Positions 9,323 to 38,545 of a stretch of DNA of 64,000 nt are shown in pieces. The notes beneath the pieces are model-generated. The model did not search any database. It saw only the letters and a program-made list of their open reading frames with translations, and was not told the origin of the DNA. The stretch comes from Actinomycetota bacterium (GTDB lineage Bacteria; Actinomycetota; Actinomycetes; Actinomycetales; Microbacteriaceae), in contig JAUZFP010000037.1 in the NCBI GenBank assembly GCA_030838475.1, forward strand, positions 1-64,000, written 5' to 3'. Position numbers and translations under genes: made by a program. Each line of letters begins with the position of its first letter. Within the stretch, counting starts at the first letter, position 1.

Positions 9323-9334
9323 CCTTACTCCCTA

Positions 9335-19698: not shown

Positions 19699-20967
19699 CT
19701 AGAGGAGGATCGAGATCGGGTTCTCGATCCTCCTCGTGAAGGCGGCGAGCCACCGGGCGGCGAGCGCGCCATCCACCGCGCGATGGTCAACCGACAGCGT
19801 GCATCGCATGATGGTGGCGACCGCGACCTCCCCGTTGACAACAACGGGCTGCGGTGTGGCCGCACCGATCGCAAGGATGCCGGACTGCGGCGGATTGAGA
19901 ATCGCCGAGAACTCTGTCGTCCCGTACATTCCGAGATTGGTCACCGCGAAGCTGCCGCCCTCCAGTTCGTCCTGGCGAAGTCGACCCGCGCGCGCACGGT
20001 CAACGAGATCCGCAATGGATTGACTCAGCTCGGTGATCGTCTTCGATTGAACCCCCCGGATGACCGGCGTCAGCAACCCTCCGTCTGTCGCGACTGCGAC
20101 GGCGATATCGACGGCATCCCATCGACGAAGGTGTGTGTCCGTCCACGTGATGTTGGCTTCGGGTACGTCGGTGAAGGCAGCCGCGACCGCTTTCACGACG
20201 AAGTCGTTGACCGACAGTTTGACCGGCGACAGTTCGTTTGCCTGCGCTCGTGCGGTGAGCAGGGCATCCACGTTGCAGTCTGTTGTCAGGTAGAAGTGCG
20301 GAACCGTCGACTTGCTCTCGGTGAGTCGGCGCGCAATAGCTTTGCGCATGGCGGTGTGCGGGATGGCGGTGTAACCGGCCCCGCTCTCGGTCGCCACCGC
20401 GCGTGTCGGTGACGGGGCGGGCCTCGCGGAAATGGCCGCCTCGACATCGACCCGCACGATGCGACCGTTCGGACCGGTTCCGCGAATTGCAGTCAGATCG
20501 ACTCCGTTCTCACGGGCTCGGATTCTCGCGATCGGGCTGATGAACAGGCGTTTGGACCCCTCGACAAGCTCGGGGACCGGAATTGGCTCGGGGACCGGAG
20601 TCGCTGCGGAGGCGGGAGCAGGAGCGAGGGCGGAGGCGGAGGCGGGAGCGGGAGCGGGAGCGGGAGCGAGGGCGGGAGCGAGGGCGGGGGTCGAGCCAAG
20701 GAGGGCGTCGATGTCGGCCTCGGTTTCGCCGCTGCTGATCAGCACCGCGATCGGTGCTCCGACCTGGGTGGAGTCTCCGGGTTTGGCGAGAATGCGACCG
20801 AGGATGCCATCCTGCTCGGCTGGCAGGTCGACCAGCGCCTTCTCGGTCTCCACCTCCGCGAGAGTGTCACCCGCCGAAAACGAGGCGCCAACCTCAACGG
20901 TCCAGGTTGAGACAACTGCCTCTGTCGCGTTTGCCAACACTTCCGGCATCCTCAGGATGGTCGCCAT
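19699..20967 (-). CDS. Dihydrolipoamide acyltransferase (E2)
   Basis: Lipoyl domain MATILRMPEVLANATEAVVSTWTVEVGASFSAGDTLAEVETEKALVDLPAEQDG; catalytic DHRAVDGALAARWL. Confidence 0.93.
   Translation of the reverse strand: MATILRMPEVLANATEAVVSTWTVEVGASFSAGDTLAEVETEKALVDLPAEQDGILGRILAKPGDSTQVGAPIAVLISSGETEADIDALLGSTPALAPALAPAPAPAPASASALAPAPASAATPVPEPIPVPELVEGSKRLFISPIARIRARENGVDLTAIRGTGPNGRIVRVDVEAAISARPAPSPTRAVATESGAGYTAIPHTAMRKAIARRLTESKSTVPHFYLTTDCNVDALLTARAQANELSPVKLSVNDFVVKAVAAAFTDVPEANITWTDTHLRRWDAVDIAVAVATDGGLLTPVIRGVQSKTITELSQSIADLVDRARAGRLRQDELEGGSFAVTNLGMYGTTEFSAILNPPQSGILAIGAATPQPVVVNGEVAVATIMRCTLSVDHRAVDGALAARWLAAFTRRIENPISILL
20620..20690. repeat. Hexamer-rich low-complexity tract encoding an Ala-Pro linker in E2
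   Basis: Repeated ggcgggagcggg/gggagc units; translates to APALAPAPAPAPASASALAPAP on the minus strand. Confidence 0.8.
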
Positions 20968-20968
20968 T

Positions 20969-23158
20969 TCAGCGCGAACCTCCCCTTGCCGCGAGCACAA
21001 ACTCAAGCCCGGCGACAACTTCTTCGGTCCTCGCGATTGCCGCGCGCTCAAGCACTCGCGAGATACTCGGACTGGCCTCTCCGCCGGTAACCCGCTGCAC
21101 CGGCTGGTCGAGCCAGTCAAAATAGCGGCGCTGGATCTCGTCGGACAGCCAGCCGCCGTAGGACGTTCCGCGAGCACCCTGCTCCACGATCAGAACGTTG
21201 TTGGTCTTCCTGACGCTCTCGCCGATGGTGTCCCAGTCGATCGATGCGCGGTCGAGCCACCGCAGGTCGACGAGATCGGCATCGACGCCCAGCTCCTCGA
21301 TCGCCTCGAGGCTGTGACCGACCATGGAGAGGTAGCTGATGACCGTGACGTCCGAACCCTCGCGCCGCAGGGCGGCCCTGCCGAGAGGCAGGTAGTAGTC
21401 GAGGTCCCCCGCCGGGACGTCCCCCAGTTGCTGATACAGATCGACGTGTTCGATCACCAGCACCGGATCCTGAAGTGCCAGGGCCGTATTCATGAGCCCG
21501 ATATAGTCGGCAGCCGATGACGGGGCGACGATCCGCCAGCCAACACTCGTCGCGAAGATTCCCGCCGGATCCATGAGGTGCTGCGAGCCGTAACCGGAGC
21601 CCATGGCGACCTTCGTGCGAAGCACGAGGGGTACGGGGTTCTCACCGCCGAACATGTGGCGGGCCTTGCCGATCTGGTTGAAGACCTGGTCGGCAGCGAC
21701 CCACAAGAAGTCCGGATACATGAACTCAACCACCGGACGGAAGCGCCCGTCGAGCGCCATCCCGCCACCGAGTCCAGCAAACGCGTTCTCGCTGATAGGT
21801 GTCCCGAGAACACGCCCGTCGAATTTCTTGGCGAGCCCCTTCGTCGCCCCGTTTGTGCCACCGTTCAGCTTGTGCACGTCTTCGCCAAGAATGATGATGC
21901 GGTCATCCTCGGCCATCCGGCGATCCATGACACCGGCGACGGCATCCACGAACTTCACGTTCTCGGTAGCACCCTTGAAGGTGGTCGGTTCGAGCGTGCG
22001 AACGTCGGCGAGTTCACTGCCGTCCCCGCGCACCCCCACGTTGACAAAATCGACGTCCGGCCACAGGTCCGGCTTGATGCGCCGCTTCCCGCTGTTCTCC
22101 GGATCGGGCTCGATCAGCTGGGCGACCGCATCACGCATGGCGGCCTGGGCCTGATCCCGCACAGAGACCAGTCCGGCATCGTCGATGAGACCGAGCGTGC
22201 GCATCTCGTTGCCGACCCGCTCGAGCGGGTCCCTCGCTCGCCAGGCCGCCTCCTCTTCTTTTGTCCGATAGCCGAAGGCACTCCCCGGGTAAGACCCGTT
22301 CTGGTGGAAGAAGCGATAGACCTCGACCTCGATGACGGCGGGCCCGCCACCTGTTCGCAGGATCTTCTCGGCGTCCTTCATCGCGAGGTGGACGGCGAGT
22401 GGGTCCATGCCATCAACTCGCCACGACGGGATGTTGAAGCCGAGCGCACGCGCGGACAGCCTCGGCTCGCCCGTCGCCTCAGCGACGGTGGTCGACACGG
22501 CATAGAGGTTGTTCTCAATGAAAAAGGTGAGCGGGATTTTCCAGGCCGACGCGAGGTTCATGGTCTCGAGCACCGAACCGATGTTGGTTGCGCCGTCGCC
22601 GAAGTACGAGACGGTGATATCGCTCGTGCCGGCGTGCTTCTGTGCCCAGGCATTGCCCGCGCCGAGCGGCACTCCTCCGCCGACAATCGCGTTCGTTCCC
22701 AGGGCTCCAGCCTCGAACCACTGCAGGTGCATGGAGCCACCGCGACCGCGGCAATAGCCCTGCGCAAGGCCGAGAATCTCGGCGAGCGTGCGCTGAAGCA
22801 CAGTCTGAACATCGGCATTCACGAGAGTCTTCGGGTCGATCACGCCACCGGTGACATGGTTCAGTGCTTTTGCGAGAAACTGATGGTGGCCACGATGCGA
22901 TCCATTGATCGCGTCCTTCGACGTCAGCCCGACGATGGAGCCGACGGCTCCTCCCTCCTGGCCGATGCTCGAATGTGCTGGGCCGTGTACGAGGCCCTCG
23001 CCAGCAAGCTCAAGCACGGTCTCTTCAAATGCGCGGATGAGATGCAGCTGACTCAACATCGTTCCGAGGAGTGCGGGATCCGCATTCTTCCAGTCGGCAG
23101 GAGTTGTGCTGAGCTCGACCCAGGGCGATCCGGGTTCCAAACGTCGTCGTTTCGGCAT
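20969..23158 (-). CDS. Fused alpha/beta thiamine-diphosphate-dependent E1 dehydrogenase
   Basis: N-terminal alpha half (GDGATNIGSVLETMNLASAWKIPLTFFIENNLYAVST) and C-terminal beta half (IILGEDVHKLNGGTNGATKGLAKKF...). Confidence 0.9.
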   Translation of the reverse strand: MPKRRRLEPGSPWVELSTTPADWKNADPALLGTMLSQLHLIRAFEETVLELAGEGLVHGPAHSSIGQEGGAVGSIVGLTSKDAINGSHRGHHQFLAKALNHVTGGVIDPKTLVNADVQTVLQRTLAEILGLAQGYCRGRGGSMHLQWFEAGALGTNAIVGGGVPLGAGNAWAQKHAGTSDITVSYFGDGATNIGSVLETMNLASAWKIPLTFFIENNLYAVSTTVAEATGEPRLSARALGFNIPSWRVDGMDPLAVHLAMKDAEKILRTGGGPAVIEVEVYRFFHQNGSYPGSAFGYRTKEEEAAWRARDPLERVGNEMRTLGLIDDAGLVSVRDQAQAAMRDAVAQLIEPDPENSGKRRIKPDLWPDVDFVNVGVRGDGSELADVRTLEPTTFKGATENVKFVDAVAGVMDRRMAEDDRIIILGEDVHKLNGGTNGATKGLAKKFDGRVLGTPISENAFAGLGGGMALDGRFRPVVEFMYPDFLWVAADQVFNQIGKARHMFGGENPVPLVLRTKVAMGSGYGSQHLMDPAGIFATSVGWRIVAPSSAADYIGLMNTALALQDPVLVIEHVDLYQQLGDVPAGDLDYYLPLGRAALRREGSDVTVISYLSMVGHSLEAIEELGVDADLVDLRWLDRASIDWDTIGESVRKTNNVLIVEQGARGTSYGGWLSDEIQRRYFDWLDQPVQRVTGGEASPSISRVLERAAIARTEEVVAGLEFVLAARGGSR

Positions 23159-23218: not shown

Positions 23219-23292
23219 TTGAATCCAATCGGTAGAGAAATTCTCCATATTTGGGGAGAAAACACCCAATTGCGAGTATTTTGTATCCAATC
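23219..23292. promoter_or_regulatory. Candidate operator pair in the divergent E1/VOC intergenic region
   Basis: Direct repeats TTGAATCCAATC (23219-23230) and TTGTATCCAATC (23281-23292), each with a TTG-N4-CAA dyad, 62 bp apart; between them GAGAA-A-TTCTC and TTCTCC-N8-GGAGAA. Confidence 0.45.
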
Positions 23293-23316
23293 AGTCTCAA
23301 TGACGAGGAGCGACAT

Positions 23317-23850
23317 ATGACGACGGGGATCCCCGGGCTACGAGGTACCGAGCACATCGGGTTCACGGTGCCCGACATCGAAGAGGCGCACCGATTCTTC
23401 GTCGACATCATCGGATGCGAATATCTGTACAGCCTCGGCCCATTCCGTCACGATGACGACGACTGGATGCTCACCCACCTGAACGTCGACCCGCGCACAA
23501 TAATGAAACAGAACCGGTTCTACCGATGCGGCTACGGGCCGAACTTCGAGATCTTCGAATACCAGCCCGTTGGTAGCGCGGCCGCGGAGCCGCGAAACAG
23601 CGATATCGGCGGCCACCATCTTGCGTTCTATGTTGACGATCTCACCTCCGCGATCGCCCATCTGCAATCAAACGGCGTGCGCGTTCTCGACGGACCAACC
23701 TCGAGCTCGAGCCACAATACAGGGCAGCAGTGGATCTACTTCCTCAGTCCGTGGGGCATGCAATTCGAACTCGTGAGCTATCCGAATGGCAAGCAGTACG
23801 AGGCAACCTCGGCGACTAAGCTGTGGCATCCGGCGCATCCGGCGGAATAG
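23317..23850 (+). CDS. VOC (glyoxalase/extradiol dioxygenase superfamily) protein
   Basis: EHIGFTVPDIEEAHRFFVDIIGCEYLYSLGPF...GHHLAFYVDDLTSAIAHLQSNGVRVLDGP...FLSPWGMQFELVSYP. Confidence 0.85.
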   Translation: MTTGIPGLRGTEHIGFTVPDIEEAHRFFVDIIGCEYLYSLGPFRHDDDDWMLTHLNVDPRTIMKQNRFYRCGYGPNFEIFEYQPVGSAAAEPRNSDIGGHHLAFYVDDLTSAIAHLQSNGVRVLDGPTSSSSHNTGQQWIYFLSPWGMQFELVSYPNGKQYEATSATKLWHPAHPAE

Positions 23851-23882
23851 CCCACGGTCACAATCCCAGGAGAAAATGCCCG

Positions 23883-24548
23883 ATGACACCCTCCCCGAGT
23901 CGAAGCGGTGACGCGGGTTCGCGTATCGCGGATTCGCTTCGCGACTCCATCCTGAGGGGCGAGTTTGCACCGGGCTCGCGTATTCGACAGGAGGATGTCG
24001 CGGACAGGCTGGGAGCAAGTCGACTCCCGGTGCGGGAAGCTCTCCGCATTCTCGAAAGCGAGGGGCTCGTCACTCTGGTGGCAAATACCGGAGCCTGGAT
24101 TGCCCACCTCAGTCTCGAAGAGTGCCAGGAGCTCTACCAAATCAGGGAGCGAGTGGAGCCCCTTCTCCTGAGTTACAGCCTGCCTGGGCTCGACGAAACG
24201 GCGCTGGATCGACTCGCCGCGCTCGCCGACGAGATGCAGGCGGGGACCGATGTCGCCCGCTTCCTGCAACTGGATCGAGAGTTCCATCTGCTGTCATATA
24301 GTGGCGCGCGTACCGCGATCCTCGGCGACACCGTGTTGCGCCTGTGGAACTCCACCCAGCACTACCGGCGCGCCTTCACACTTGTGTCCGGGCCTGTCGG
24401 CAATCGCGCCGTTCACTACGAGCACCAACTTCTGGTCGGAGCGATCCGACGGCGCGACAATGACGACGCGGAGCGAGTGCTTCTCGGGCACATCCGGCGC
24501 ACCCGGCTTGAGCTGCTGTCGCACCCCGACCTGTTTGCTCGGGGTTAG
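23883..24548 (+). CDS. GntR-family (FCD-type) transcriptional regulator
   Basis: IADSLRDSILRGEFAPGSRIRQEDVADRLGASRLPVREALRILESEGLVTLVANTGAWI. Confidence 0.93.
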   Translation: MTPSPSRSGDAGSRIADSLRDSILRGEFAPGSRIRQEDVADRLGASRLPVREALRILESEGLVTLVANTGAWIAHLSLEECQELYQIRERVEPLLLSYSLPGLDETALDRLAALADEMQAGTDVARFLQLDREFHLLSYSGARTAILGDTVLRLWNSTQHYRRAFTLVSGPVGNRAVHYEHQLLVGAIRRRDNDDAERVLLGHIRRTRLELLSHPDLFARG

Positions 24549-25318
24549 ACGCTCTTTGCGAGGGTCTCGGCCGGACCTCGCGCACTGGCTCCGAGGTAGA
24601 GCCGCGCCACCTCGGGATCGTTGAGCAGCTCCTGACCTGTGCCGGTCAACGCGACAACCCCAGCTTCAAGAACCGCCGCGCGGTGGGCGACAGCGAGACC
24701 GGAACGTGCGTTCTGCTCAACGAGGAGCACCGTGCGCCCGTCTTCGGCAAGCTTGGAGATACTGGCAAAGACGGAGCTTCGCGCCCGTGGGTCGAGACCG
24801 ATAGATGGCTCATCAAGAAGGATAAGCGCGGGGTCGAGCATGAGCGAGCGCGCCAGTTCGACCTGCTTCTGCTCGCCGCCAGACAGCGATCCGGCGGATG
24901 CGCTGCGCCGTTTGGCGACAATCGGAAACAGCTCCGCGACCTCGGCAAGTCTTCGGCGCAGGAGTGCCTGGTCCGAGAGGATGAACGCGCCCATCGCGAC
25001 GTTCTCCCATACGGTCATTGCCGGGAAGAGACTCCGATCCTGCGGAACATGGACGACGCCGCGCGAAAGCCGTTCCCGAGACGTCAGGGCGCTGATGTTC
25101 TCGCCGCGGAACATCACCGCGCCCGACCTGGGCCGCAGAAGACCGCTCACGGTTTTCAAAACCGTGGACTTTCCTGCGCCGTTCGGCCCGATCAAGCAAA
25201 TGATCTCGCCGCGAGCAACGTCAAGGTTTACCCCCTTGAGGATGAGCCCTGCGCCATAGCCTGCGGTGACCTCGCTGATCTGGAGAATCAGTTCCGGAGT
25301 GGAATTCTTAGCCGCCAA
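24545..25318 (-). CDS. Branched-chain amino acid-type ABC transporter ATP-binding protein (LivF-like)
   Basis: LIGPNGAGKSTVLKTVSGLL; LSGGEQKQVELARSLMLDPALILLDEPSIGLDP. TTG start at 25318 overlapping the LivG stop. Confidence 0.93.
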   Translation of the reverse strand: MAAKNSTPELILQISEVTAGYGAGLILKGVNLDVARGEIICLIGPNGAGKSTVLKTVSGLLRPRSGAVMFRGENISALTSRERLSRGVVHVPQDRSLFPAMTVWENVAMGAFILSDQALLRRRLAEVAELFPIVAKRRSASAGSLSGGEQKQVELARSLMLDPALILLDEPSIGLDPRARSSVFASISKLAEDGRTVLLVEQNARSGLAVAHRAAVLEAGVVALTGTGQELLNDPEVARLYLGASARGPAETLAKSV

Positions 25319-26042
25319 GGTATGCCTCCAAAACCTTCGGATTCGATTGCACTTCGGCGGGAGTGCCAAATGCGATTGGTGCGCCTTGGTCGAGAACGAT
25401 GACCGGATCACACAGTCGCATCACAAGTTGCATGTCGTGCTCGACAATCAGGAAGGTCACGCCAGCGGCGTTGCGCTCCCTGATATGTCGTTCCATGGCA
25501 TCGATCATGACCGGATTCACCCCGGCAGTCGGCTCATCAAGTAACACCAGTTTCGGATTGCTCATGAGTACCGCCGCGAACTCCAGGAGTTTGCGCTGCC
25601 CATAAGAAAGATCGGAGGCTGGCAGTTCGAGGAGGGGTTCGAGCCGAAACTCGGCCAGCATCTGTCGAGCGAGTTCCTTGTCCGTCGCCGACACCCGGCG
25701 ACCGAAAAGCTGGCGCCAGGAGTATCCCGCGGCAACGACCAGGTTTTCCTCGACACTCAGCTCAGGAAATATGCGTGCCTGCTGAAAAGTTCGCGAGAGC
25801 CCCCGTCGATACAGGTCCGCGGGGCGAGGGCGCGCAATGGTGTTCCCCCTGAAGTGAATCTGCCCCGAATCGGCTTTGAGGTAGCCGGTGATCATATTGA
25901 ACGCCGTTGTCTTGCCAGACCCGTTCGGACCGATCAGTGCGGTGATCGAGCCCTCGTTGACGGTGAACGAACACTCGTCAACGGCGGTAACTCCGCCGAA
26001 CCGCTTGGTGAGGTGATCCACCTCGAGAAGTACCTCGCTCAA
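25308..26042 (-). CDS. ABC transporter ATP-binding protein (LivG-like)
   Basis: LIGPNGSGKTTAFNMITGYLK; DLSYGQRKLLEFAAVLMSNPKLVLLDEPTAGVNP. Confidence 0.93.
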   Translation of the reverse strand: MSEVLLEVDHLTKRFGGVTAVDECSFTVNEGSITALIGPNGSGKTTAFNMITGYLKADSGQIHFRGNTIARPRPADLYRRGLSRTFQQARIFPELSVEENLVVAAGYSWRQLFGRRVSATDKELARQMLAEFRLEPLLELPASDLSYGQRKLLEFAAVLMSNPKLVLLDEPTAGVNPVMIDAMERHIRERNAAGVTFLIVEHDMQLVMRLCDPVIVLDQGAPIAFGTPAEVQSNPKVLEAYLGG

Positions 26043-27088
26043 CGCGCGACCTCCGACGTGACGGGTGATTTCGACGCATCCTGAACCTCGGACAGTTGCG
26101 CCGCATCGCGCGCGTCTCCCTCGGCCGCCAAGCGCCGCCGTCGAAGTCGGTCCGAAATCGACGGCAGGATGCCCCGAGGGAGGAACAGCATGATCACGAG
26201 AAAGACCGCAGCGTAGGCCAGCAGGTAAAGCTCACTGGCCCCGAACGTCTGCGCGAAGAACTCCTGGGCGGGAACGAGAATGAATGATCCGAGTACCGGA
26301 CCCCACAGTGTCCCCCGGCCACCAAGAAATGCCATCAGCACCATCCCGATGGTGATGAGCGGGTCAACGGCGAACTGCGGATATATGAATCCGACGTAGT
26401 AGGCCCAGACACAGCCAACCATTGCCACCATTCCGGAGCTCACCGCAAAGGCGATCAACTTGACAGCGGTCACTCGCACACCGACACCGTGCGCCTTGTC
26501 TTCGTCGGCTCGCACCGTGGCGAGCGACAGTCCAATTTTCGAGCGGCTGAAATAGAAGGAGATACCCATGGCGACCGCGAGAAGCGCGAGCATTGCGTAG
26601 TAGAAGGGCCAGTCGTAGGTCGACACGTCAAAAGGTGGTGGTGCGACGCTCTTGCCTTGAGCGCCTCCCGTGAGGGAGTTCAGGTTGAATGCGAGCGTTT
26701 GCGTGATGAAGAGGAACGTGATGGTCACGATCGCAAAGACATCGGCCCGCGTTCGCATCGACACCCAGCCGATCGGGACGCTCAGCAGCGCGACAGCGAC
26801 GCCAACGACAGGCAGCGCGAGGAAGGGCGAGAATCCGTCGCCGACGCTTCCCTGGAACATGATCGCGAATGCGTATGCCCCGATTCCGAAAAACGCCACG
26901 TGTCCGAGGGACGGGTATCCGGCCAGACCGCCGAGGAGGTTCCACGAACTCGAAAGCGCCGCATACATGACCGTAAAGATCAGCATGTTCAACAGCCATA
27001 CCGGGCCACCGAGGATGGGAACGAGAATGAGCAGGCCGAAGAAGATCACGACGCGCAGCAGTCCGAACCGGCTGATCGCGCGCTTCAC
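26039..27088 (-). CDS. ABC transporter permease (LivM-like)
   Basis: NLLGGLAGYPSLGHVAFFGIGAYAFA...FLGGRGTLWGPVLGSFILVPAQE. Confidence 0.92.
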   Translation of the reverse strand: MKRAISRFGLLRVVIFFGLLILVPILGGPVWLLNMLIFTVMYAALSSSWNLLGGLAGYPSLGHVAFFGIGAYAFAIMFQGSVGDGFSPFLALPVVGVAVALLSVPIGWVSMRTRADVFAIVTITFLFITQTLAFNLNSLTGGAQGKSVAPPPFDVSTYDWPFYYAMLALLAVAMGISFYFSRSKIGLSLATVRADEDKAHGVGVRVTAVKLIAFAVSSGMVAMVGCVWAYYVGFIYPQFAVDPLITIGMVLMAFLGGRGTLWGPVLGSFILVPAQEFFAQTFGASELYLLAYAAVFLVIMLFLPRGILPSISDRLRRRRLAAEGDARDAAQLSEVQDASKSPVTSEVAR

Positions 27089-27963
27089 AGTGCCCCTCGC
27101 GTCTTCGCACCGAAGAGACCGCGCGGTCGCAGCAGCAGCACGAGTAGCAAAACGATGAAGAAGGTGAAGTCGGACCAGATCGGGGACGCAAGCGCGGAGA
27201 CGAGCGACGAGGCGACGCCCATGATCAGGGCCGCAACGACCGAACCACCGATGCTGCCGAGCCCACCGAGGACGACGATGGTAAGCAGCCGGCTAATCAG
27301 GTCGTAGTGGCTACCCGGGTTGAACGAGTTGAGCATCCCAAAAACGGAGCCCGCCGCCGCCGCCGTGGCCGCACCAAGGCCGAAGCCCAGGGCGGACACG
27401 CGATTCGCGTTGACCCCGAGTAGCTGCGCGGACATCGGGTTTTGTACCGTTGCCCGAACCGATCGCCCGAATTTCGTGCGCTGCAGGATGAAGTAGAGAA
27501 CTCCCAGCATCACGATCGAGAGAAGGAAGGCGACAAATCGGACCAGGCTGATCTGATAGCCGAAGACGGTCCAGCTGTAGTTCGCATAGGTGGGCTGCAC
27601 ATTCGTGAGGGTCGCGCCGTACGCGAACGAAAGGGCGCCCTCGATCGCTAGCGCGATCGCGAAGGTGACGAGTAGTGAGAGTTGTGCGACATCCTCACCA
27701 TGCAGTGGGCGCAGAAGCGCCCACTGCAATCCGATGCCCACGAGGAAGAGCAACGGCGTGGTGATGAGGATTGAGACGAACGGGTCAATACCGAGGGTGG
27801 TGAACAACGTGTAGGTCAGGTACGCACCGAGAACTACCAGTGCGCCCTGCGCGAGGTTCACCACCTTCATGATTCCGAAGATGAGCGTCTGCCCGCTTGC
27901 CATGAGGGCGTAAACCCCGCCGGTAAGGATTCCGAGAATGATTGCCTGGATCAGAGCGTGCAT
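27085..27963 (-). CDS. ABC transporter permease (LivH-like)
   Basis: GILTGGVYALMASGQTLIFGIMKVVNLAQGALVVLGAYLTY; GLGSIGGSVVAALIMGVASS. Confidence 0.92.
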   Translation of the reverse strand: MHALIQAIILGILTGGVYALMASGQTLIFGIMKVVNLAQGALVVLGAYLTYTLFTTLGIDPFVSILITTPLLFLVGIGLQWALLRPLHGEDVAQLSLLVTFAIALAIEGALSFAYGATLTNVQPTYANYSWTVFGYQISLVRFVAFLLSIVMLGVLYFILQRTKFGRSVRATVQNPMSAQLLGVNANRVSALGFGLGAATAAAAGSVFGMLNSFNPGSHYDLISRLLTIVVLGGLGSIGGSVVAALIMGVASSLVSALASPIWSDFTFFIVLLLVLLLRPRGLFGAKTRGAL

Positions 27964-27983: not shown

Positions 27984-29243
27984 CTATCCGGCCCAGTTGG
28001 GCTTGGGTGCGATGGGCTTGGCTTGCGCCTTCGACGCCGGGTACACCGTCGTCAGCGTGTTGTCGATCCACTGGATCAGCAGGTAGGCACCCTTTGGCGC
28101 ACCGTATTGGTCCCAGCTGAGGTTTCCCACCAGCGTTGGCCAGGTGCCGCTGTGCAAGGTCTTGATGATGGTCGCGTTATCGACCTTGCCGGTCTTCTTC
28201 GCCACTTCCTGAAGAAGCATGCCGGCCGAGTACGCTTCGGCCGAGGTTGGGTCAATCTGCTGAACGGTTCCGCCGTACTTCGCGAGGTAGGCGGCGATGA
28301 AGGCCTTGCTGCCCGCGACCTGGGAGTCGGCGTACCAATCGGCGCTCGAGAACACACCATTGGTATTCGACGTCCCAACTGCTGCAGGGAAGTCGCCCGG
28401 CGAGTTTGCGCCGTTCGCCTCGAACAGCCACTTCGGGTTGAACTTCTGCTGGATCATCGCCTTCATCTGGGCGAACGCGTCGCCCTCCTGGGTGCCGCCA
28501 ACGACGACATCCGGATTCGCGGCGGCGATTCCAGCCACGATCGGAGTCATGTCTGCCGTCTCCGCCGGGTACGTTTGGTCGTAGACGGTCTTGATTCCCG
28601 CTGCCTCGAAACGCTTCTGGATGTTGGCGGCGATGGGAGCAGCGAACGGATCATCCAGCTTTGCGTATGCGGCCGTCTTCGGGCGCTTGCTCTTGGGCAG
28701 CGACAGGATGTAGTCGGCAAATACGTCGCCACCCGAGGTCGTGGGTGCCGGTTGCACGAAGAAGAGGTTCGTCAGTTTCTGCGCGAAGACCGCCGGTCCA
28801 CCGCCAGCGGGCTCGATGAACGAGTAGTGGTATCGGCTCGCGACTCGAGAAGCCGGCACCGTGAGCAGGCTAGAGAACGGCCCCATGACGATGTTGACCT
28901 TGGATTGTGTGATCAGGTTCGTGTAGTTGGTGACGACCTGATCGGGGCTCGAGGCATCGTCGACAACTTTCAACTCGACCTTTCTGCCGAGAACGCCACC
29001 CGCCTTGTTCGTCTCGCTCACCCACAGTGCATAACCGCGCTGCGCAGCCTTGCCCGAGTCGGAGAAGTCGCCGGTGAGCGATAGTGAAACACCAATGGTG
29101 AGGGGTGCCTTTGTCGCCGACTTTGACGTTGTAGTGGCGGTGCAGCCGGCGAGGGCCAGGCTGGTTGCCAACACCGCGCCGACCACCGTGAGAAGTCGCC
29201 GTGAGCGGCGGACCTCCGGCGTGTGAATTCGTAGTTGCATCAT
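27984..29243 (-). CDS. ABC transporter substrate-binding lipoprotein (Leu/Ile/Val-binding type)
   Basis: Lipobox LALAGCTA; PLTIGVSLSLTGDFSDSGKAAQRGYALWVSETNKAGGVLGRKVELKVVDD. Confidence 0.93.
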   Translation of the reverse strand: MMQLRIHTPEVRRSRRLLTVVGAVLATSLALAGCTATTTSKSATKAPLTIGVSLSLTGDFSDSGKAAQRGYALWVSETNKAGGVLGRKVELKVVDDASSPDQVVTNYTNLITQSKVNIVMGPFSSLLTVPASRVASRYHYSFIEPAGGGPAVFAQKLTNLFFVQPAPTTSGGDVFADYILSLPKSKRPKTAAYAKLDDPFAAPIAANIQKRFEAAGIKTVYDQTYPAETADMTPIVAGIAAANPDVVVGGTQEGDAFAQMKAMIQQKFNPKWLFEANGANSPGDFPAAVGTSNTNGVFSSADWYADSQVAGSKAFIAAYLAKYGGTVQQIDPTSAEAYSAGMLLQEVAKKTGKVDNATIIKTLHSGTWPTLVGNLSWDQYGAPKGAYLLIQWIDNTLTTVYPASKAQAKPIAPKPNWAG

Positions 29244-29315: not shown

Positions 29316-29329
29316 TGCAATCGTTTGCA
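29316..29329. promoter_or_regulatory. Candidate LacI-family operator upstream of the liv operon
   Basis: TGCAATCGTTTGCA, near-palindromic, 73 bp upstream of the liv binding-protein start; matches the site at 30491. Confidence 0.7.
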
Positions 29330-29383: not shown

Positions 29384-30400
29384 TCAGCGTGCCGGCCCGG
29401 TCGACTCCCGAATTACGAGCTCGACCGGCAGGGTGATTTTGAGTGCAGAGAGTTGCGAGCCGTCGATCTGTTCGAGAAGGAGCCGCGCCGATTCCGCACC
29501 CATTTCGAAATGCGGGGTGCGCACTGTCGTCATCGCGGGTTGAAAATCGCCGGCGAACGGCATGTCATTGAAGCCGACCACGGAGACATCTCCTGGGCAG
29601 GTCAGCGCGTGCAATCTGAGCGAATGATAGACACCCAGCGCAAGCAGGTCGTTGCCCGCCACTACCGCCGTCGGACGCGCCGTGACTTTCGAGTCGAGTA
29701 CGTCATCCATTGCGCTTTGCCCAGCCTCAACCGAATACGCGGCGCAGGGCACGACGTGGCCGTCCAATCCGAGTTCCGCACATCCCGAAACAAATGCTTC
29801 CGCGCGAATCCGGCTCGTCGAAAACGACGGCGGGCCCTCGAGGTGCATGACGCGACGATGGCCAAGCGCGGCCAAATGTCGCAGTGATGCCTTGATTCCC
29901 TCGGCGTCATCGCCTACAACAGCGGGATACGGAACACCGCCAGAGTCTCGATTTACCATGACCGCTTTGATATCGCGATCGAACGCCTCGCCGGCAATTG
30001 AGTGTCCGCTGTGGCCGGTGGCAAAAATCAGACCATCAACCTGGCGCTGCACCAGGGACTCGAACAGCAGACGCTCCGCGTCATCGCTGCCGTCGGTATT
30101 GACGACGACAGCCGAATACCCGCGAACCGCGAGCCTGCTGTCAATCCCGCGCACAATGGGCGGGAAAATGGGGTTCGTGAGGTCTGGAATGATCACCCCG
30201 ATGGTCATCGAGGAATTGGTGCGAAGGCCTCGGGCGATCGAATTGGGTGCGTAGCCGAGCTGCTTGGCTGCCTGCCGAACTCGAGCCAGCGTTTCGTGAT
30301 TGACCTGGTTTTCGGTCTTCTGGTTGAGCGCGCGCGAAACCGTTCCAGCGTGGACGCCTGCAACTCGCGCAACGTCCGCAATTGTCACGCGGCTCGACAT
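29384..30400 (-). CDS. LacI-family transcriptional regulator
   Basis: VTIADVARVAGVHAGTVSRALNQKTENQVNHETLARVRQAAKQLGYAPNSIARGLRTN. Confidence 0.95.
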   Translation of the reverse strand: MSSRVTIADVARVAGVHAGTVSRALNQKTENQVNHETLARVRQAAKQLGYAPNSIARGLRTNSSMTIGVIIPDLTNPIFPPIVRGIDSRLAVRGYSAVVVNTDGSDDAERLLFESLVQRQVDGLIFATGHSGHSIAGEAFDRDIKAVMVNRDSGGVPYPAVVGDDAEGIKASLRHLAALGHRRVMHLEGPPSFSTSRIRAEAFVSGCAELGLDGHVVPCAAYSVEAGQSAMDDVLDSKVTARPTAVVAGNDLLALGVYHSLRLHALTCPGDVSVVGFNDMPFAGDFQPAMTTVRTPHFEMGAESARLLLEQIDGSQLSALKITLPVELVIRESTGPAR

Positions 30401-30490
30401 GGGTCAACGCTAGCAGTCGGCTACGCGACGGGCCGAGAATCGTCGAAAGGTTGACGGCAGCCGATTTCTGACTGAATAATGGCCTAGAAC

Positions 30491-30504
30491 TGCAATCGAT
30501 TGCG
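30491..30504. promoter_or_regulatory. Candidate LacI-family operator upstream of the dehydrogenase/M24/ALDH operon
   Basis: TGCAATCGATTGCG containing the perfect palindrome GCAATCGATTGC, 26 bp upstream of the ATG at 30531. Confidence 0.75.
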
Positions 30505-30530: not shown

Positions 30531-31478
30531 ATGAACACAACCGCCAAGCCCACCATCGGGTGGATCGGGGCCGGTCGCATGGGATTCGAGATGGTAAAGC
30601 GACTCCTCGAAGCGGGCTACGACGTCGCGGTGTACAACCGCACTCGCTCTAAGGCAGAACCCCTCGCCGAGCGGGGAGCGAGCCTCGTTGCTCGCCCGGT
30701 TGACCTGGCGGACCGCGACATCGTATTCATCATGGTGTCTGCGCCCAAGGACCTCGAGGCGGTCACGATCGGTGAGGGGGGCGTGCTGACATCCGATGCG
30801 AAAACGCCGGGCATCATCATCGATTCCTCGACCGTCTCCCTCGCGGTGTCCGCGTCGATTCGCAGCCACGCGGCGGGGCACGGTTCACAATTTCTCGCCG
30901 CCCCGGTCAGCGGGAATCCCTCGGTCATTGCTGCGGGAAAGCTGACGATCGCGGCCTCGGGTCCTCGCGAGACGTTCGATCGTGTGCACGACGTGCTGAC
31001 GACCATTGGACGCAGCGCAACCTATGTCGGCGACGGCGAGGTGGCTCGGCTGGTAAAGATCGCACACAACGTGTTCCTTGGCGTCGTCATCCAGTCACTG
31101 GTCGAAATCACGACCCTCACCGAACGTGGCGGCGTCAGCAGGGAGGCATTTCTTGAGTTTCTGAACGACTCCGTCATGGGCTCGACATTCACCCGCTACA
31201 AAACACCCGGAATCGTCAATCTGGATTTCACGCCAACCTTCACGATCCCACTGCTGTCGAAGGACTTCGATCTCGGGCTCGCCGCCGCGCACGAGCTGGG
31301 TATTCCAATGCCGGTCGCTGCGGCTACCGCCCAACTCGTGTCGTCCGCGATGGGTGCCGGCTACCTCGAGGAAGACTTCGCGGTGCTCCTTCTCGAGCAG
31401 GCCAGACGCGCAGGCATGGAACTCGTTTCGGAAGACGTTCACGTGAAGAGCGGTCTGGAGGTGGGCGCCGATGAGTAA
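30531..31478 (+). CDS. NAD(P)-dependent 3-hydroxyisobutyrate dehydrogenase-family oxidoreductase
   Basis: IGWIGAGRMGFEMVKRLLEAGYDVAVYNRTRSKAEPLAERGA...FLAAPVSGNPSVIAAGKLTIAASG. Confidence 0.9.
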   Translation: MNTTAKPTIGWIGAGRMGFEMVKRLLEAGYDVAVYNRTRSKAEPLAERGASLVARPVDLADRDIVFIMVSAPKDLEAVTIGEGGVLTSDAKTPGIIIDSSTVSLAVSASIRSHAAGHGSQFLAAPVSGNPSVIAAGKLTIAASGPRETFDRVHDVLTTIGRSATYVGDGEVARLVKIAHNVFLGVVIQSLVEITTLTERGGVSREAFLEFLNDSVMGSTFTRYKTPGIVNLDFTPTFTIPLLSKDFDLGLAAAHELGIPMPVAAATAQLVSSAMGAGYLEEDFAVLLLEQARRAGMELVSEDVHVKSGLEVGADE

Positions 31479-32715
31479 CCTCATTCCGCTGCAGGCCCCC
31501 GGGCACAGCAACGTCGACTACGAGATGCGTGTCGACATGGATCGGCTTCGCACCTACCGACTGGATCGCGCGAAGAAGTCGCTGGAGTCGAGTGAGTGCG
31601 GAGCGTTCCTGCTCTTCGACTTCTACAACATCCGCTACACGACCCAAACCTGGATCGGAGGTGCCCTCGGCGACAAGATGACTCGGTACGCCCTCCTGAC
31701 ACGGGATGGCGACCCCATGCTGTGGGACTTCGGTTCCGCTGTACGGCACCACCAGCTCTACTCGCCCTGGCTCAAGCCGGAGAATAACCGGCCGGGCATG
31801 CTGGGCATGCGCGGTGCCGTCGCGCCATCGGCGGGCCTCATGGAGTCGGCGGTCAAGGAGATCAAGTCTCTTCTCGTCGAAGCGGGGGTCGCCGACCTGC
31901 CGGTTGGCGTCGATATCGTCGAGCCGCCGTTCCTGTTCGAGATGCAACGCCAGGGACTGAAGGTCGTGGATGCGCAGCAGCTGATGCTGGACGCTCGCCA
32001 GATTAAGTCCGTGGATGAGATCATGCTGCTCAATCAGGCGGCCGCGATGGTCGACGGGGTGTACCAGGACATCGTGGACGTTTTGAAGCCCGGCATCAGG
32101 GAGAACGAAATCGTCGCGTTGGCGAACAAGCGACTCTACGAGCTCGGGTCGGACCAGGTCGAGGCGGTGAATGCGATATCCGGGGACCGCTGCAACCCTC
32201 ATCCACACAACTTCACCGACCGGATTATTCGGCCGGGAGACCAGGCGTTCTTCGATATCATCCATTCGTTCAACGGCTATCGCACCTGCTACTACCGGAC
32301 TTTTGCCGTGGGCAGCTCGACACCGAGCCAGCGCGACGCTTACACGAAAGCGCGCGAGTGGATGGATGCGGCGATCGATACCGTGCATGCGGGTGTTGGC
32401 ACCGACGAGATCGCGAGCGTGTGGCCGAAGGCTACGGACTTCGGGTTCGCGAATGAGCTTGCCGCGTTCGGCCTGCAATTCGGCCATGGCCTCGGGCTCG
32501 GCCTGCACGAACGTCCCATCATTTCCCGGCTGAACAGCCTGGACAACCCGGTGGAGATCAAGGCCGGAATGGTCTTCGCCCTCGAAACGTACTGCCCCGC
32601 CTCGGACGGGTTCTCGGCCGCCCGGATCGAGGAAGAGATCGTGGTCGCCGAAAACGGTGTCCACATTCTGACCCGGTTCCCCGCGCAGGAACTCTTCGTC
32701 GCCAACCCCTACTAG
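31471..32715 (+). CDS. M24-family (creatinase/Xaa-Pro peptidase fold) protein with a non-canonical metal site
   Basis: MDRLRTYRLDRAKKSLESSECGAFLLFDFYNIRYTTQTW...; GHGLGLGLHERP; FALETY; ARIEEEIVV. 8-nt overlap with preceding gene. Confidence 0.88.
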   Translation: MSNLIPLQAPGHSNVDYEMRVDMDRLRTYRLDRAKKSLESSECGAFLLFDFYNIRYTTQTWIGGALGDKMTRYALLTRDGDPMLWDFGSAVRHHQLYSPWLKPENNRPGMLGMRGAVAPSAGLMESAVKEIKSLLVEAGVADLPVGVDIVEPPFLFEMQRQGLKVVDAQQLMLDARQIKSVDEIMLLNQAAAMVDGVYQDIVDVLKPGIRENEIVALANKRLYELGSDQVEAVNAISGDRCNPHPHNFTDRIIRPGDQAFFDIIHSFNGYRTCYYRTFAVGSSTPSQRDAYTKAREWMDAAIDTVHAGVGTDEIASVWPKATDFGFANELAAFGLQFGHGLGLGLHERPIISRLNSLDNPVEIKAGMVFALETYCPASDGFSAARIEEEIVVAENGVHILTRFPAQELFVANPY

Positions 32716-32735: not shown

Positions 32736-34217
32736 ATGCTGATTCGCCACTCTCACACTGACGCCGACACCGCAGACCTCACGGGCTGGTTTACCCACGA
32801 TCTGGTGATCGACGGTGTGTCTCGCGCCGCGTCGACCCAGGAGCGCTTTGACGTGATCAACCCGGCGACCGGCGAAACGATCGCCAGCGTCGCAAGCGCA
32901 ACGGTTGACGATGCCCTCTCGGCGGTGCGTGCGGCGGAGCGAGCTCTCCCGATCTGGAGCGCTCGTGCCCCACGGGAACGGGCCGAGATCCTTCGCAAGA
33001 CGTTTGAGCTGATGCAGGAACGCTCGGAAGACCTGGCCCGGCTTATCGTGCTCGAGAACGGCAAGTCCCTCGCGGATGCTCGGGGCGAGATCGCGTACGC
33101 CGCTGAGTTCTTCCGCTGGTATTCCGAGGAGGCCGTGCGACTGCTGGGCAGCATGCAGGTGTCGCCAAACGGACAGAACCGCATTCTCGTGACGCATCAG
33201 CCCATCGGCGTCAGCGTTCTTGTTACGCCGTGGAACTTCCCGGCGGCGATGGCGACCCGGAAGATCGGTCCTGCGCTCGCGGCCGGGTGCACGGTCATCC
33301 TGAAGCCAGCGAGCGATACTCCGCTGACCGCGCTCGCGATCGGACAGCTGCTGTCAGATGCCGGAGTTCCAGCCGGCGTGGTCAATATCCTTCCGTCGCG
33401 GAAATCCGGCACGGTCGTCGGTGCGATGCTCGACGATCCTGCGGTGCGCAAGCTGTCCTTCACCGGTTCGACCGAGGTGGGCAGAATCCTGCTCGCGACC
33501 GCGTCAGCGACTGTCGTGAACTGCAGCATGGAGTTGGGTGGCAACGCTCCGTTCCTCGTCTTTGCCGATGCCGACATGGACGCTGCCATCGATGGCGCGA
33601 TGCTGGCAAAGATGCGAAATGGCGGCGAGGCGTGTACCGCGGCCAACCGGTTCTATGTGCACTCGTCCGTCGCGAGTGAGTTCTCCCGGCGCCTCTCCGA
33701 GCGGATGAGCGCGCTCAGTGTCGGGGATGGGCTGGAGGAGTCCGTCAACCTGGGGCCGCTCATCAATGAGGACGCGCGAACCAAGGTGCACAGCCTCGTT
33801 TCCGCCGCCGTTGCCAGCGGAGCCACCGCCCTGAATGGCGGCGCTCCGGACAACGGAGTTGGCTTCTTTTATCCAGCCACAGTTCTGGTGGATGTTGCTC
33901 CCGACTCCCCAATCCTGGACGAGGAAATCTTCGGACCCGTTGCGCCGGTTGTAACTTTCGAGACGGACGACGAAGCGGTCAGATTCGCTAACAACACCGA
34001 ATTCGGCCTGGTCGCCTACGTCTATACGTCCGATCTTGCTCACGGCCTCGCAATCAGCCAACGCCTCGAAACCGGCATGGTGGGTCTGAATCGTGGCCTG
34101 GTGTCTGACCCGGCCGCACCGTTCGGTGGCTTCAAGCAGAGCGGGATTGGTCGAGAGGGTGGCCACGAGGGAATGCTCGAATTCACGGAGTCCCAGTACA
34201 TCGCTGTCAGCTGGTGA
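32736..34217 (+). CDS. Aldehyde dehydrogenase family protein (succinate-semialdehyde dehydrogenase-like)
   Basis: MELGGNAPFLVFADADMD; GGEACTAANRFYV; APFGGFKQSGIGREGGHEGMLEFTESQYIAV. Confidence 0.93.
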   Translation: MLIRHSHTDADTADLTGWFTHDLVIDGVSRAASTQERFDVINPATGETIASVASATVDDALSAVRAAERALPIWSARAPRERAEILRKTFELMQERSEDLARLIVLENGKSLADARGEIAYAAEFFRWYSEEAVRLLGSMQVSPNGQNRILVTHQPIGVSVLVTPWNFPAAMATRKIGPALAAGCTVILKPASDTPLTALAIGQLLSDAGVPAGVVNILPSRKSGTVVGAMLDDPAVRKLSFTGSTEVGRILLATASATVVNCSMELGGNAPFLVFADADMDAAIDGAMLAKMRNGGEACTAANRFYVHSSVASEFSRRLSERMSALSVGDGLEESVNLGPLINEDARTKVHSLVSAAVASGATALNGGAPDNGVGFFYPATVLVDVAPDSPILDEEIFGPVAPVVTFETDDEAVRFANNTEFGLVAYVYTSDLAHGLAISQRLETGMVGLNRGLVSDPAAPFGGFKQSGIGREGGHEGMLEFTESQYIAVSW

Positions 34218-34266: not shown

Positions 34267-34338
34267 GCCTCCTTAGCTCAGTGGTAGAGCACCGCTCTTG
34301 TAAAGCGAAGGTCGTCGGTTCAAATCCGACAGGGGGCT
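34267..34338 (+). tRNA. tRNA-Thr (anticodon TGT)
   Basis: Acceptor GCCTCCT/AGGGGGC pairs, D-arm TAGCTCAGTGGTAGAGC, anticodon loop CTTGTAA, T-arm GTCGGTTCAAATCCGAC. Confidence 0.95.
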
Positions 34339-34340
34339 CT
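34296..34340. repeat. Candidate attL: 3' half of tRNA-Thr
   Basis: tcttgtaaagcgaaggtcgtcggttcaaatccgacagggggctct repeated at 61579-61624 with one inserted A. Confidence 0.9.
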
Positions 34341-34367
34341 GGAAAAAGCTGATCAGAGGCTATTTTT
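34337..34367 (+). terminator. Weak terminator-like hairpin just downstream of tRNA-Thr
   Basis: CTCTG-N12-CAGAG followed by gctaTTTTT. Confidence 0.4.
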
Positions 34368-34547
34368 CACGCGTCATTTGCCGAGGTTTACTCGTTTTCT
34401 CAGTTTTGCCCACACTTTGCCCACATCTGATTGGGCAATTCGTGTCTTGCGAGGGACTTTGCGACACCCAATCTGTCTCCCCCGGTAGAAGCCTGAGCTT
34501 CCACGAATCCGAGAATGCTCGCAAGCGCCGTCGCTTAGCCCTAGGGT

Positions 34548-35678
34548 TTGTTCAACCGACTCGATGAGGAGACTCGCGTGGTAGCAGTGGAGTTTGAGGA
34601 GCGCCTAACCGCCCTCGCAACCAGGATCAAAACCCAGCGTGCGTCTGTAAAGACCGAGGAAGCTACCAAGAACGCCTTTGTGATGCCCTTCATCTCAACG
34701 ATCCTGGGCTACGACGTCTTCAATCCGCTCGAGGTCGTGCCCGAATTCATAGCGGACGTCGGCATGAAAAAGGGCGAGAAGATCGACTACGCGATCATGC
34801 GAGATGGCGTCGTGCAGATCCTCATCGAGTGCAAGTCAACGGGGCCCCTTCGAATCGAGAATGCGTCTCAGCTCTATCGATACTTCGCCGTTACAAGGGC
34901 ACGAATTGCAGTGCTGACCAACGGGGTGATCTATCAGTTTTTTACTGACCTAGACGCTCCAAACATGATGGATAATCGTCCCTTCTTGGTGTTGGACATG
35001 GAGAGCATTGATGAATCACTAATTCCTGAATTAGTGAAGATGAGCAAAGAAGTATTCGATCTCGATTCGATCATTAGTGCCGCCGAAGAGTTGAAGTATG
35101 TCGGAGCCATCAAACGCCTCATCGCTGCGCAATTCAAAGAACCGGAGGACGAGTGGATTCGCCTTCTGGCCACCCGCGTCTACGAAGGTTCCTACACCCA
35201 GAAAGTGAAAGAGCAATTCAAGAAGCTCGTGCCGCGAGCTACCGCACAGTTCCTGAACGACCAGGTGAACGAGCGACTCAAAACCGCTCTCGTCTCACCC
35301 CCGTTCAGTTCGGACGATGCACCCGTGGAGGCAATGGGCAGCGGCGCCATTGCTCATGAACAACTGGGTGGCATTGTTACAACCCAGGAAGAGCTCGACG
35401 GCTTTAACATCGTGAAGGCCATCGCCTGCAGCGAGGTGAAGCCGGAACGCATTATCGCCCGCGATTCGCAGTCGTATTTCGGCATCCTTCTCGACGACAA
35501 CAACCGGAAGACAATTGCCCGACTCCACTTCAATCAGAAGAAGCAGAAGTACCTCGGTCTGCTCGATGAGGACAAAGTCGAGACACGTCACGCAATCGCG
35601 ACGCTCGACGACATCTACCAATACGCCGAGGCGATTCGTACCACGGTGAAGCATCTGAGGGATTCGACTTCGGCCTAG
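34548..35678 (+). CDS. Stand-alone type I restriction HsdR_N-like (PD-(D/E)xK) protein
   Basis: KNAFVMPFISTILGYDVFNPLEVVPEFIADVGMKKGEKIDYAIMRDGVVQILIECKSTG...; D...ExK motif; no helicase domain. Start could be GTG at 34578. Confidence 0.8.
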   Translation: MFNRLDEETRVVAVEFEERLTALATRIKTQRASVKTEEATKNAFVMPFISTILGYDVFNPLEVVPEFIADVGMKKGEKIDYAIMRDGVVQILIECKSTGPLRIENASQLYRYFAVTRARIAVLTNGVIYQFFTDLDAPNMMDNRPFLVLDMESIDESLIPELVKMSKEVFDLDSIISAAEELKYVGAIKRLIAAQFKEPEDEWIRLLATRVYEGSYTQKVKEQFKKLVPRATAQFLNDQVNERLKTALVSPPFSSDDAPVEAMGSGAIAHEQLGGIVTTQEELDGFNIVKAIACSEVKPERIIARDSQSYFGILLDDNNRKTIARLHFNQKKQKYLGLLDEDKVETRHAIATLDDIYQYAEAIRTTVKHLRDSTSA

Positions 35679-35786
35679 ACACTGCAGAATTGCAAGGCAA
35701 CTTTGAGTTAGGGTCTGTCGCTGCGCCGGCTCGAGATGTGCATCTACAACCTTCTTCGGCCTAGTCAACGGCTAGGGGAAAATCAA

Positions 35787-36671
35787 TCAACTCGTGTAAA
35801 GGCTGCCCTTGTAGTACAGCCCGTCCTTGCGGTCCAGCCCCTCGTCCACTAAATAGTCGATCTCATATGCGAATTCCGCGACATAGACGTGAATCTTTCC
35901 GGTAACGACGTCGAACAGTAAGTCGCCGCACGAGTTTTGCGTGATCGTGTTGTAGCCCTCGTAGTAATGCAAATATTCTGACGGCGCTTCGCCGATCACG
36001 ATCATTTGGGGATTGAGCTTCTTGAGCCACTCGTGAGGCACCTTCCCAGACGTGCGGCCGTGATGGGGCGCAAACAGCACATCCACTTTCGGGATGTCAA
36101 CTTTCTCTTCGATTGCCTCCATGAAGTCGGTCTCGAGATCACCCATCCATAGAAATGTGCCACCTCCCTCCATCGAGTATTTGGTGATGCACGACATGTT
36201 GTTTGGCGAAAGACCCGCACTGGCGTCGGCGAGTGCAATTTCGAAGTCCGGGTCGCCAAGCTTCGGCCACAGGATATTCAAGCCCGAACTCTTACGCCCG
36301 TCCCCCTCACGGTTCATCCACTTTCGACTGCAACCCGCAAAGATATTGAAGGCCTTTGTAGAGTCTCGAAGGTCGCAATAGCGATCGAAGTCAGCGGTCG
36401 GCGCATCCTTCGTCGCTGCGTTGGCGACGCAGTAGAAATTCCTGATAGGCAAGACGTCATCTAGTTCGGCTAACCCAGACAAGTGATCCTGATCGGGGTG
36501 TGTGGAAATGAAACGAGTTATGTCTTTGTCAGCTGATTGAGTTTTGAGCTCAGCCAGGATTCCTCCGGCGCGATCAGCTAGGTTGCAGTCGATTATCGTG
36601 AAATTGTCGCTGTTATGGCGGATGTAAAACATGTCGCCATTGCCTACCGAGAACGATTTGATGAGTGTCAA
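35787..36671 (-). CDS. ComEC/Rec2-like MBL-fold metallohydrolase
   Basis: FSVGNGDMFYIRHNSDNFTIIDCN; STHPDQDHLSG (HxxxDH); FLWMGDLETDF; VLFAPHHGR. Confidence 0.85.
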   Translation of the reverse strand: MTLIKSFSVGNGDMFYIRHNSDNFTIIDCNLADRAGGILAELKTQSADKDITRFISTHPDQDHLSGLAELDDVLPIRNFYCVANAATKDAPTADFDRYCDLRDSTKAFNIFAGCSRKWMNREGDGRKSSGLNILWPKLGDPDFEIALADASAGLSPNNMSCITKYSMEGGGTFLWMGDLETDFMEAIEEKVDIPKVDVLFAPHHGRTSGKVPHEWLKKLNPQMIVIGEAPSEYLHYYEGYNTITQNSCGDLLFDVVTGKIHVYVAEFAYEIDYLVDEGLDRKDGLYYKGSLYTS

Positions 36672-36720
36672 TTGGTGCCGCCGATCTTTGAGTGGTTAGA
36701 GGCAACCGACGGCGAGACTC

Positions 36721-37464
36721 TTATTCCCCAGTTCGCCGGCTAGCGGTTACAACGGCGTTCAGCAGCTGTTCTGCGTAGCGAAAACCTGCCATTCTGGTCC
36801 GTTCCGCCGACGGCGCGAACGACCAGAATGCGGTAATTGCCAGACAGACAATTACTCCAACAACTGAGGAAACGGAGTAGTGCTCAGGTAGCAGCAAGAA
36901 CCCTATCGCGAACCCGAGGAGACTTGCATATGTTGCTGCACGGCCGATCCATCGAACAGCGAACAAATTCCGCTCGAAGCCATACTGCGCGCTCTCCTGC
37001 TCGATTAGCGGAAACTCCGACCTGCGCCCCAGAGGGCGAACCTGAGATATTGCGAGGTCGATAAGTTCGTCCGCACGGGAACCATAGCGTCGCTCGGCGC
37101 GCGCGGATAGAAACTTGATCCCGGTTACTTTCTGGATTGCGGCGCGCCTAGTTTCGCGGCGGATCGCTGTTTGAAGTGAACCGTCGCGACGAAGCAGTTG
37201 TGTCGTCGGTTTGCCACCCCAGGATCTGTACAAAGCGGGTTCAACCGCTCGACCGAAGTTGCCAACGAATAGTGAGAGCACAAACCCGCCCGCGCCCAGT
37301 GAAACAAGTCCGAGAACACCAGCAACGATCGGATACTTATCGAATCCAAGCGCAACTACAAGGTCGGCAATTGGTGCGATAACCAATAGCCCTGGAGCAA
37401 GTCGCGCCCTGCGCTCATATGCGCTGAGGACCGGTCCAAGACTCTTAATGGATGCGGAGCTCAC
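36721..37464 (-). CDS. Four-TM membrane protein (2TM - soluble ~90 aa - 2TM)
   Basis: Hydrophobic segments LLVIAPIADLVVALGF, IVAGVLGLVSLGAGGFVLSLFVG, AATYASLLGFAIGFLLLP, VVGVIVCLAITAFWSFA; GTG start overlaps the stop of the PIN gene (GTGA). Confidence 0.7.
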   Translation of the reverse strand: MSSASIKSLGPVLSAYERRARLAPGLLVIAPIADLVVALGFDKYPIVAGVLGLVSLGAGGFVLSLFVGNFGRAVEPALYRSWGGKPTTQLLRRDGSLQTAIRRETRRAAIQKVTGIKFLSARAERRYGSRADELIDLAISQVRPLGRRSEFPLIEQESAQYGFERNLFAVRWIGRAATYASLLGFAIGFLLLPEHYSVSSVVGVIVCLAITAFWSFAPSAERTRMAGFRYAEQLLNAVVTASRRTGE

Positions 37465-38488: not shown

Positions 38489-38545
38489 ATCGATGCCCTC
38501 CGTTCCAGCGCAGCCTTAGTTTGGCAGATGCGCACGATATCGGTC

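Follow-up and report, generated by a model that had tools for sequence, protein, structure and literature searches.

A conserved cysteine at the bridging-ligand position of M24-fold proteins from a predicted catabolic operon

Metallopeptidases of the M24 fold carry Asp, Asp, His, Glu and Glu at five metal-ligand positions. The same fold is found in ectoine hydrolase DoeA (EutD) and creatinase, which are small-molecule C-N hydrolases of catabolic operons, and in the DMSP lyase DddP, for which an extra ligand (Asp297) and the proposed catalytic residues Tyr366 and Asp377 have been described (PMC4108388). Here we present an M24-fold protein with a different ligand set, encoded in the draft genome of an actinobacterium of the Microbacteriaceae (GCA_030838475.1, contig JAUZFP010000037.1), within a stretch of 64,000 nucleotides that was analysed as a whole and is referred to below as the window. 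From the letters of this DNA, the original prediction proposed that Cys replaces the second Asp of the canonical pair (D-x10-C) while the downstream His and two Glu remain, and that the product has an unusual metal site or is a non-peptidase catabolic enzyme, with creatinase and the DMSP lyase DddP as precedents. The features of the locus are collected in Table 1.

Table 1. Features of the locus encoding the Cys-type M24 protein, with positions in the window.
Feature	Position	Strand	Basis or remark
Lipoyl E2 acyltransferase	19699..20968 (start approximate)	-	TIGR01349, 416 bits
Fused E1 alpha/beta of a 2-oxoacid (or acyloin) dehydrogenase complex	20969..23158	-	Pfam E1_dh, Transket_pyr, Transketolase_C
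VOC/glyoxalase-fold protein	23251..23850	+	Pfam Glyoxalase_4, 2.7e-12; in 33/80 relative loci
GntR regulator, recurring neighbour in relatives	23823..24548	+	
liv-type ABC transporter, two permeases and two ATPases	24545..27963	-	
liv-type periplasmic binding protein	27984..29243	-	Pfam Peripla_BP_6, 1.9e-51
Second putative operator copy, TGCAATCGTTTGCA, upstream of the liv binding-protein gene	29316..29329		genome pattern search
LacI-family regulator, divergent from the operon	29384..30400	-	RbsR/LacI-family matches
Promoter-like TTGACG / AATAAT ahead of the operon	30451..30480	+	read by eye
Putative LacI-type operator, TGCAATCGATTGCG, palindrome before the M24 operon	30491..30504		best match in genome
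3-Hydroxyisobutyrate/4-hydroxybutyrate-dehydrogenase-family oxidoreductase	30531..31478	+	Pfam NAD_binding_2, 3.3e-37
Cys-type M24 protein, two-domain creatinase/prolidase fold	31471..32715	+	414 aa, ATG start
Asp262, first metal-ligand position, kept	32254..32256	+	sequence; invariant
Cys273, at second (bridging) ligand Asp position	32287..32289	+	sequence; invariant
His339, ligand position, kept	32485..32487	+	alignments
His346, canonical substrate-side His	32506..32508	+	alignment
Glu372, ligand position, kept	32584..32586	+	alignments
Glu387, ligand position, kept	32629..32631	+	alignments
Succinate-semialdehyde-dehydrogenase-like aldehyde dehydrogenase	32736..34217	+	Pfam Aldedh, 6.2e-161

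Both the fold and the residue set can be read from the sequence. The product matches Pfam Peptidase_M24 (PF00557) at 7.8e-36 and 124 bits, against a gathering score of 23, and carries Asp, Cys, His, Glu and Glu where M24 metallopeptidases have Asp, Asp, His, Glu and Glu. In alignments to solved prolidases and dipeptidases, the second ligand Asp of PepE 4ege, 5cdl, 1pv9 and 4rgz pairs with Cys273 and no alternative Asp is available, a placement with which an alignment to 30 other M24 proteins agrees. The reading frame is real, the proposed D-x10-C pair lies exactly where it had been located, and the downstream residues correspond to ligand positions His339, Glu372 and Glu387. An AlphaFold2 model of moderate confidence (mean pLDDT 75.6, pTM 0.70) matches PepE 4ege at an E-value of 2.7e-23, DddP 4b28 with a query TM of 0.70 and DoeA 6twk with a query TM of 0.72, in each case over both domains; its confidence drops around residues 242-246 and 343-346, on either side of the pocket, which limits its value as a guide to site geometry.

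The cysteine is not peculiar to this genome. A scan of GTDB species genomes returned at least 585 candidate stretches encoding relatives, of which the best 80 were kept; these are 77-95% identical, are actinobacterial wherever a lineage is given, and all 80 loci encode the motif CYYRT. A homologue from Diaminobutyricibacter is 94% identical. Every close homologue examined, including these 80 species loci and the paralogous subfamily B at about 57% identity, reads Asp, Cys, His, Glu, Glu, and an alignment of 51 sequences, two of them from subfamily B (56-57% identical), shows no variation at D262, C273, H339, E372 or E387. Plasmid records extend the family to Roseobacteraceae (62-63% identical), a Streptomyces plasmid (74%), subfamily B members of Paenarthrobacter and Rhodococcus opacus (54-56%) and haloarchaea (36-38%), with the Cys present in every aligned relative from this set. 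A DNA pattern with a wildcard codon at this position gave 32 matches in 29 of 397 Actinomycetota genomes, all 32 with a Cys codon; as the pattern was tied to the flanking motif, this shows that the Cys-type family has no Asp version there and is not a survey of all M24 genes. A private mutation or an assembly or sequencing error is ruled out by this universality, and on present sequences Cys273 is a family trait, fixed throughout a family that is widespread in bacteria and archaea. A pseudoenzyme is likewise unlikely, given the open frame and the retention of four ligands over large distances.

Two members of the family can occur in one locus. In three loci, subfamily A and subfamily B Cys-type M24 genes lie within a few kb of each other, with genes for HIBADH-family, alcohol and other dehydrogenases between or beside them, and the two subfamilies may act on related substrates.

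Comparison across M24 groups places this exchange in context. The two prolidases and the DddP-like group included in the comparison retain Asp, Asp, His, Glu and Glu, as do the genome's own two more distant M24 matches, which are taken to be methionine aminopeptidases, while in DoeA and its relatives most of the five positions have changed together (EPYMT, ETYEI or EPYIS). In a maximum-likelihood tree, rooted only for display and with long branches in part of the outgroup, all 18 sequences of the Cys type fall into a single group with support of 98/94. This clade is marked by D-x10-C together with the motif GYR[ST]CYYRT and by retention of the His and both Glu, and the protein of the window shows all of these features. 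The exchange of a single ligand, with the other four fixed since before the bacterial and haloarchaeal lineages split, argues for a changed but working metal site rather than decay, and Cys-type proteins look like M24 enzymes in which one ligand of a retained metal site has been exchanged. The predicted unusual metal site is to this extent supported, through the conservation of four ligands beside the one that differs. The loss of the metal site in several small-molecule enzymes of the fold, such as the DoeA group, does raise the alternative that Cys273 acts as nucleophile or acid/base in a metal-free enzyme, as in creatinase and ectoine hydrolase, where the fold works without the peptidase metals; an invariant pocket Cys could act as a nucleophile. 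We consider this improbable, however, since a metal-free enzyme would not need the other four ligands, which are invariant even in very distant members.

The same tree identifies the DddP-like group as sister to the Cys-type clade (support 95/86). As DddP represents a lyase group, the chemistry of the Cys-type proteins may be elimination instead of hydrolysis, and the main rival to hydrolysis is a metal-dependent lyase like DddP, in which the metal site would bind a substrate carboxylate and a leaving group would be eliminated. Consistent with such a role, no NCBIfam model matches better over full length than that of DddP (NF043017), structural comparison also ranks DddP structures near the top, and an elimination product could be taken up by the hydroxyacid dehydrogenase encoded upstream. 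However, the score of 98.2 bits falls far under the DddP cut-off of 600; DddP Asp297, Tyr366 and Asp377 align with Ile264, Gly334 and His346, so that the DddP residues are replaced; and the last of these replacements retains the substrate His of prolidases. We therefore regard a DddP-type lyase as rather unlikely, if the most serious of the alternatives. The earlier comparison with DddP holds for kinship, in the form of a sister clade, and fails for catalytic residues and family score.

DddP-like M24 proteins with the Asp kept were also seen on a Rhizobium leguminosarum plasmid and on pSymA of Sinorhizobium medicae, in betaine-type clusters encoding a ring-hydroxylating dioxygenase, hydroxyproline epimerase, a member of the trimethylamine methyltransferase family and betaine transporters, hinting at an undescribed role for this group there.

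Public records label Cys-type M24 proteins as 'Xaa-Pro peptidase family protein', and an ordinary Xaa-Pro dipeptidase in which Cys can stand in for Asp would accord with this annotation, with the fold and with most substrate-side residues, which are as in prolidases. Against it, the protein scores below every peptidase equivalog cut-off (73.9 bits against 630 for PepQ); the position is always Cys and never Asp; and at the position of His346, which subfamily A keeps, subfamily B has Trp and haloarchaea have Tyr, in contrast to the constancy of the five ligand positions. Moreover, the operon partners are dehydrogenases and an E1/E2 complex, with no peptide uptake system beside the M24 gene within the window. 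Peptidase activity of this kind is accordingly very improbable, and 'Xaa-Pro peptidase' is a misnomer for the product, one that matters for the at least 585 GTDB stretches that encode relatives of a protein so named.

Gene context bears on the biological role. The dehydrogenase gene overlaps the start of the M24 gene by 8 bases, and in 67 of 79 relatives, too, the gene that directly precedes M24 on its strand is of the HIBADH family. The nearest solved match of the window's dehydrogenase is 3pef (1.1e-36), which we take to belong to the 4-hydroxybutyrate/succinic-semialdehyde reductase group, a kinship that fits the SSADH-like partner encoded downstream. That aldehyde dehydrogenase scores 570 bits against the SSADH subfamily model, under its cut-off of 646; such a gene directly follows the M24 gene in 35 of 76 relatives, and 58 of 80 loci contain one at any position. 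On Roseobacter plasmids the gene order is SDR, M24, E1 alpha, E1 beta, lipoyl protein, SSADH and E2, with Lpd following E2 in the M24 operon of a Phaeobacter plasmid. In other lineages of Actinomycetota the M24 gene adjoins E1 alpha/beta, with the aldehyde dehydrogenase next in some (three loci); these adjacencies come from quick gene calling that missed the M24 gene in several loci, and absences among them carry no weight. Subfamily B genes likewise have a HIBADH-family partner, joined in several genomes by the same E1/E2, VOC and GntR genes. A catabolic role for Cys-type M24 proteins is therefore well supported by gene context, and the catabolic half of the original prediction gains from the conserved operon, from the predicted LacI operator shared with the liv genes and from the proximity of E1/E2 genes in several phyla.

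Several specific pathways were considered and set aside. Ectoine, DMSP and creatine catabolism were rejected on scores, residues and neighbouring genes: the DoeA model (TIGR02993) gives 58 bits against a cut-off of 613, and no eut or doe genes were found among the neighbours of the M24 gene in the window. As sources of a semialdehyde, the vitamin B6, pantothenate, nicotine/pyridine and trigonelline pathways do not match the conserved gene set. On a plasmid of Paenarthrobacter sp. R1 (7190-11362), a subfamily B M24 gene and a RidA gene adjoin the flavin reductase gene sulR of a sulfonamide-degradation cluster, and a second subfamily B copy resides on another plasmid of this strain. A paper on sulfonamide degradation makes no mention of peptidase or RidA genes (PMC10873849). 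The M24 family is also far older, and sulfonamide catabolism was rejected as its role, the adjacency to sulR being taken as transposition.

Beyond the operon, the window contains features of separate interest. A tRNA-Thr gene (34267-34339) lies just after the aldehyde dehydrogenase gene and is followed, up to position 39685, by genes for an HSDR_N-domain protein, a DUF433/PIN_10 pair, a phage-type integrase (38546-39685) and one protein without a Pfam match that resembles MBL-fold enzymes by eye; the region 34267-39685 is probably a small island inserted at tRNA-Thr. The small ORFs at 42185-42493 and 62020-62319 (MSIDETLAAEAAHAEANRD / MSIEATLAAEAAHVEANRD), each of about 100 aa and 20 kb apart, are near-duplicates of each other; the copy that was searched gave no Pfam match. 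A 3075-aa ORF of repeated DUF7927 and DUF11 domains (51954-61181) probably encodes a large surface protein.

The regulatory sequences bear on what the operon may act upon. The putative operator before the M24 operon sits just downstream of the promoter-like pair and is conserved in four further loci; it and the copy before the liv genes are the only two good palindromic matches in the whole draft genome (86% complete), and two further genome matches, with one mismatch each, are not symmetric. The pattern in the window is modestly above chance (two of 100 shuffles had at least three matches at two mismatches), and we give more weight to the placement of both sites and to the fact that the operon site recurs among relatives. 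A single LacI regulator therefore probably governs the liv transporter as well as the M24 operon, each being preceded by a putative operator copy. The transporter type differs between relatives (liv, ribose-type or dipeptide-type), which suggests that the substrate may differ between lineages.

Taken together, these observations lead us to favour, as an evenly balanced judgement, a non-peptidase enzyme that belongs to a catabolic regulon, depends on metal held in part by the Cys273 thiolate, and has C-N hydrolysis of a liv-imported compound as its likely reaction. Most of our confidence attaches to its being a catabolic, non-peptidase metal enzyme, C-N hydrolysis being the least certain step; the sequence itself shows the fold, the residue set, its conservation, the operon and the operator copies, whereas metal binding through Cys, the hydrolysis and the order of steps are what we infer. 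The liv-type transporter would bring in a small compound, and the LacI regulator would sense this compound or a product of it, releasing the liv genes and the dehydrogenase-M24-ALDH operon together. In the M24 protein, the Cys273 thiolate would replace the bridging Asp in a one- or two-metal centre with Asp262, His339, Glu372 and Glu387, which would activate water and most likely hydrolyse a C-N bond of an amide, lactam or ureide. The product may be a hydroxy-acid, hydroxy-ketone or semialdehyde, to be oxidised by the hydroxyacid and semialdehyde dehydrogenases, and the E1/E2 complex would cleave a 2-oxoacid or acyloin intermediate.

A more ambitious proposal, which we put forward tentatively and with some doubt, is that the D-C-H-E-E clade has a thiolate-bridged two-metal centre with chemistry new to the M24 fold, and performs the committed step of a widespread and undescribed catabolic pathway; this would comprise a transporter, hydroxyacid dehydrogenase, Cys-type M24 protein, E1/E2 complex and semialdehyde dehydrogenase, and would be common to Actinomycetota, Roseobacteraceae and haloarchaea. 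A search of the open-access literature found no description of a Cys-ligated M24 enzyme or of the M24 operon. Relative to that literature, the novelty lies in a family defined by the Cys-type ligand set and in its pathway, whereas the fold, operon partners and regulator types are of known kinds. If Cys273 is a metal ligand, the family offers a well-studied metal site in which nature has cleanly exchanged one residue, and with it a means of asking how a single ligand determines the choice of metal and the chemistry. The predicted LacI-liv regulon offers a direct route to the substrate of the pathway.

Set against known systems, the Cys-type protein resembles the prolidases and Xaa-Pro dipeptidases (PepQ and PepE; M24B) in fold, in four ligands (Asp, His, Glu, Glu) and in the substrate-side His346, but differs in having Cys for the bridging Asp, in its sub-cut-off scores and in its catabolic operon. 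With DddP it shares a sister-clade relationship, a full-length two-domain match and the same Asp, His, Glu and Glu ligands; in contrast, it has Cys for DddP Asp307 and lacks equivalents of Asp297, Tyr366 and Asp377. DoeA and creatinase share its fold and likewise belong to catabolic operons, but in enzymes of the DoeA type the set of metal ligands is gone (the aligned DoeA reads EPYMT), whereas the Cys-type proteins keep four of the five ligands.
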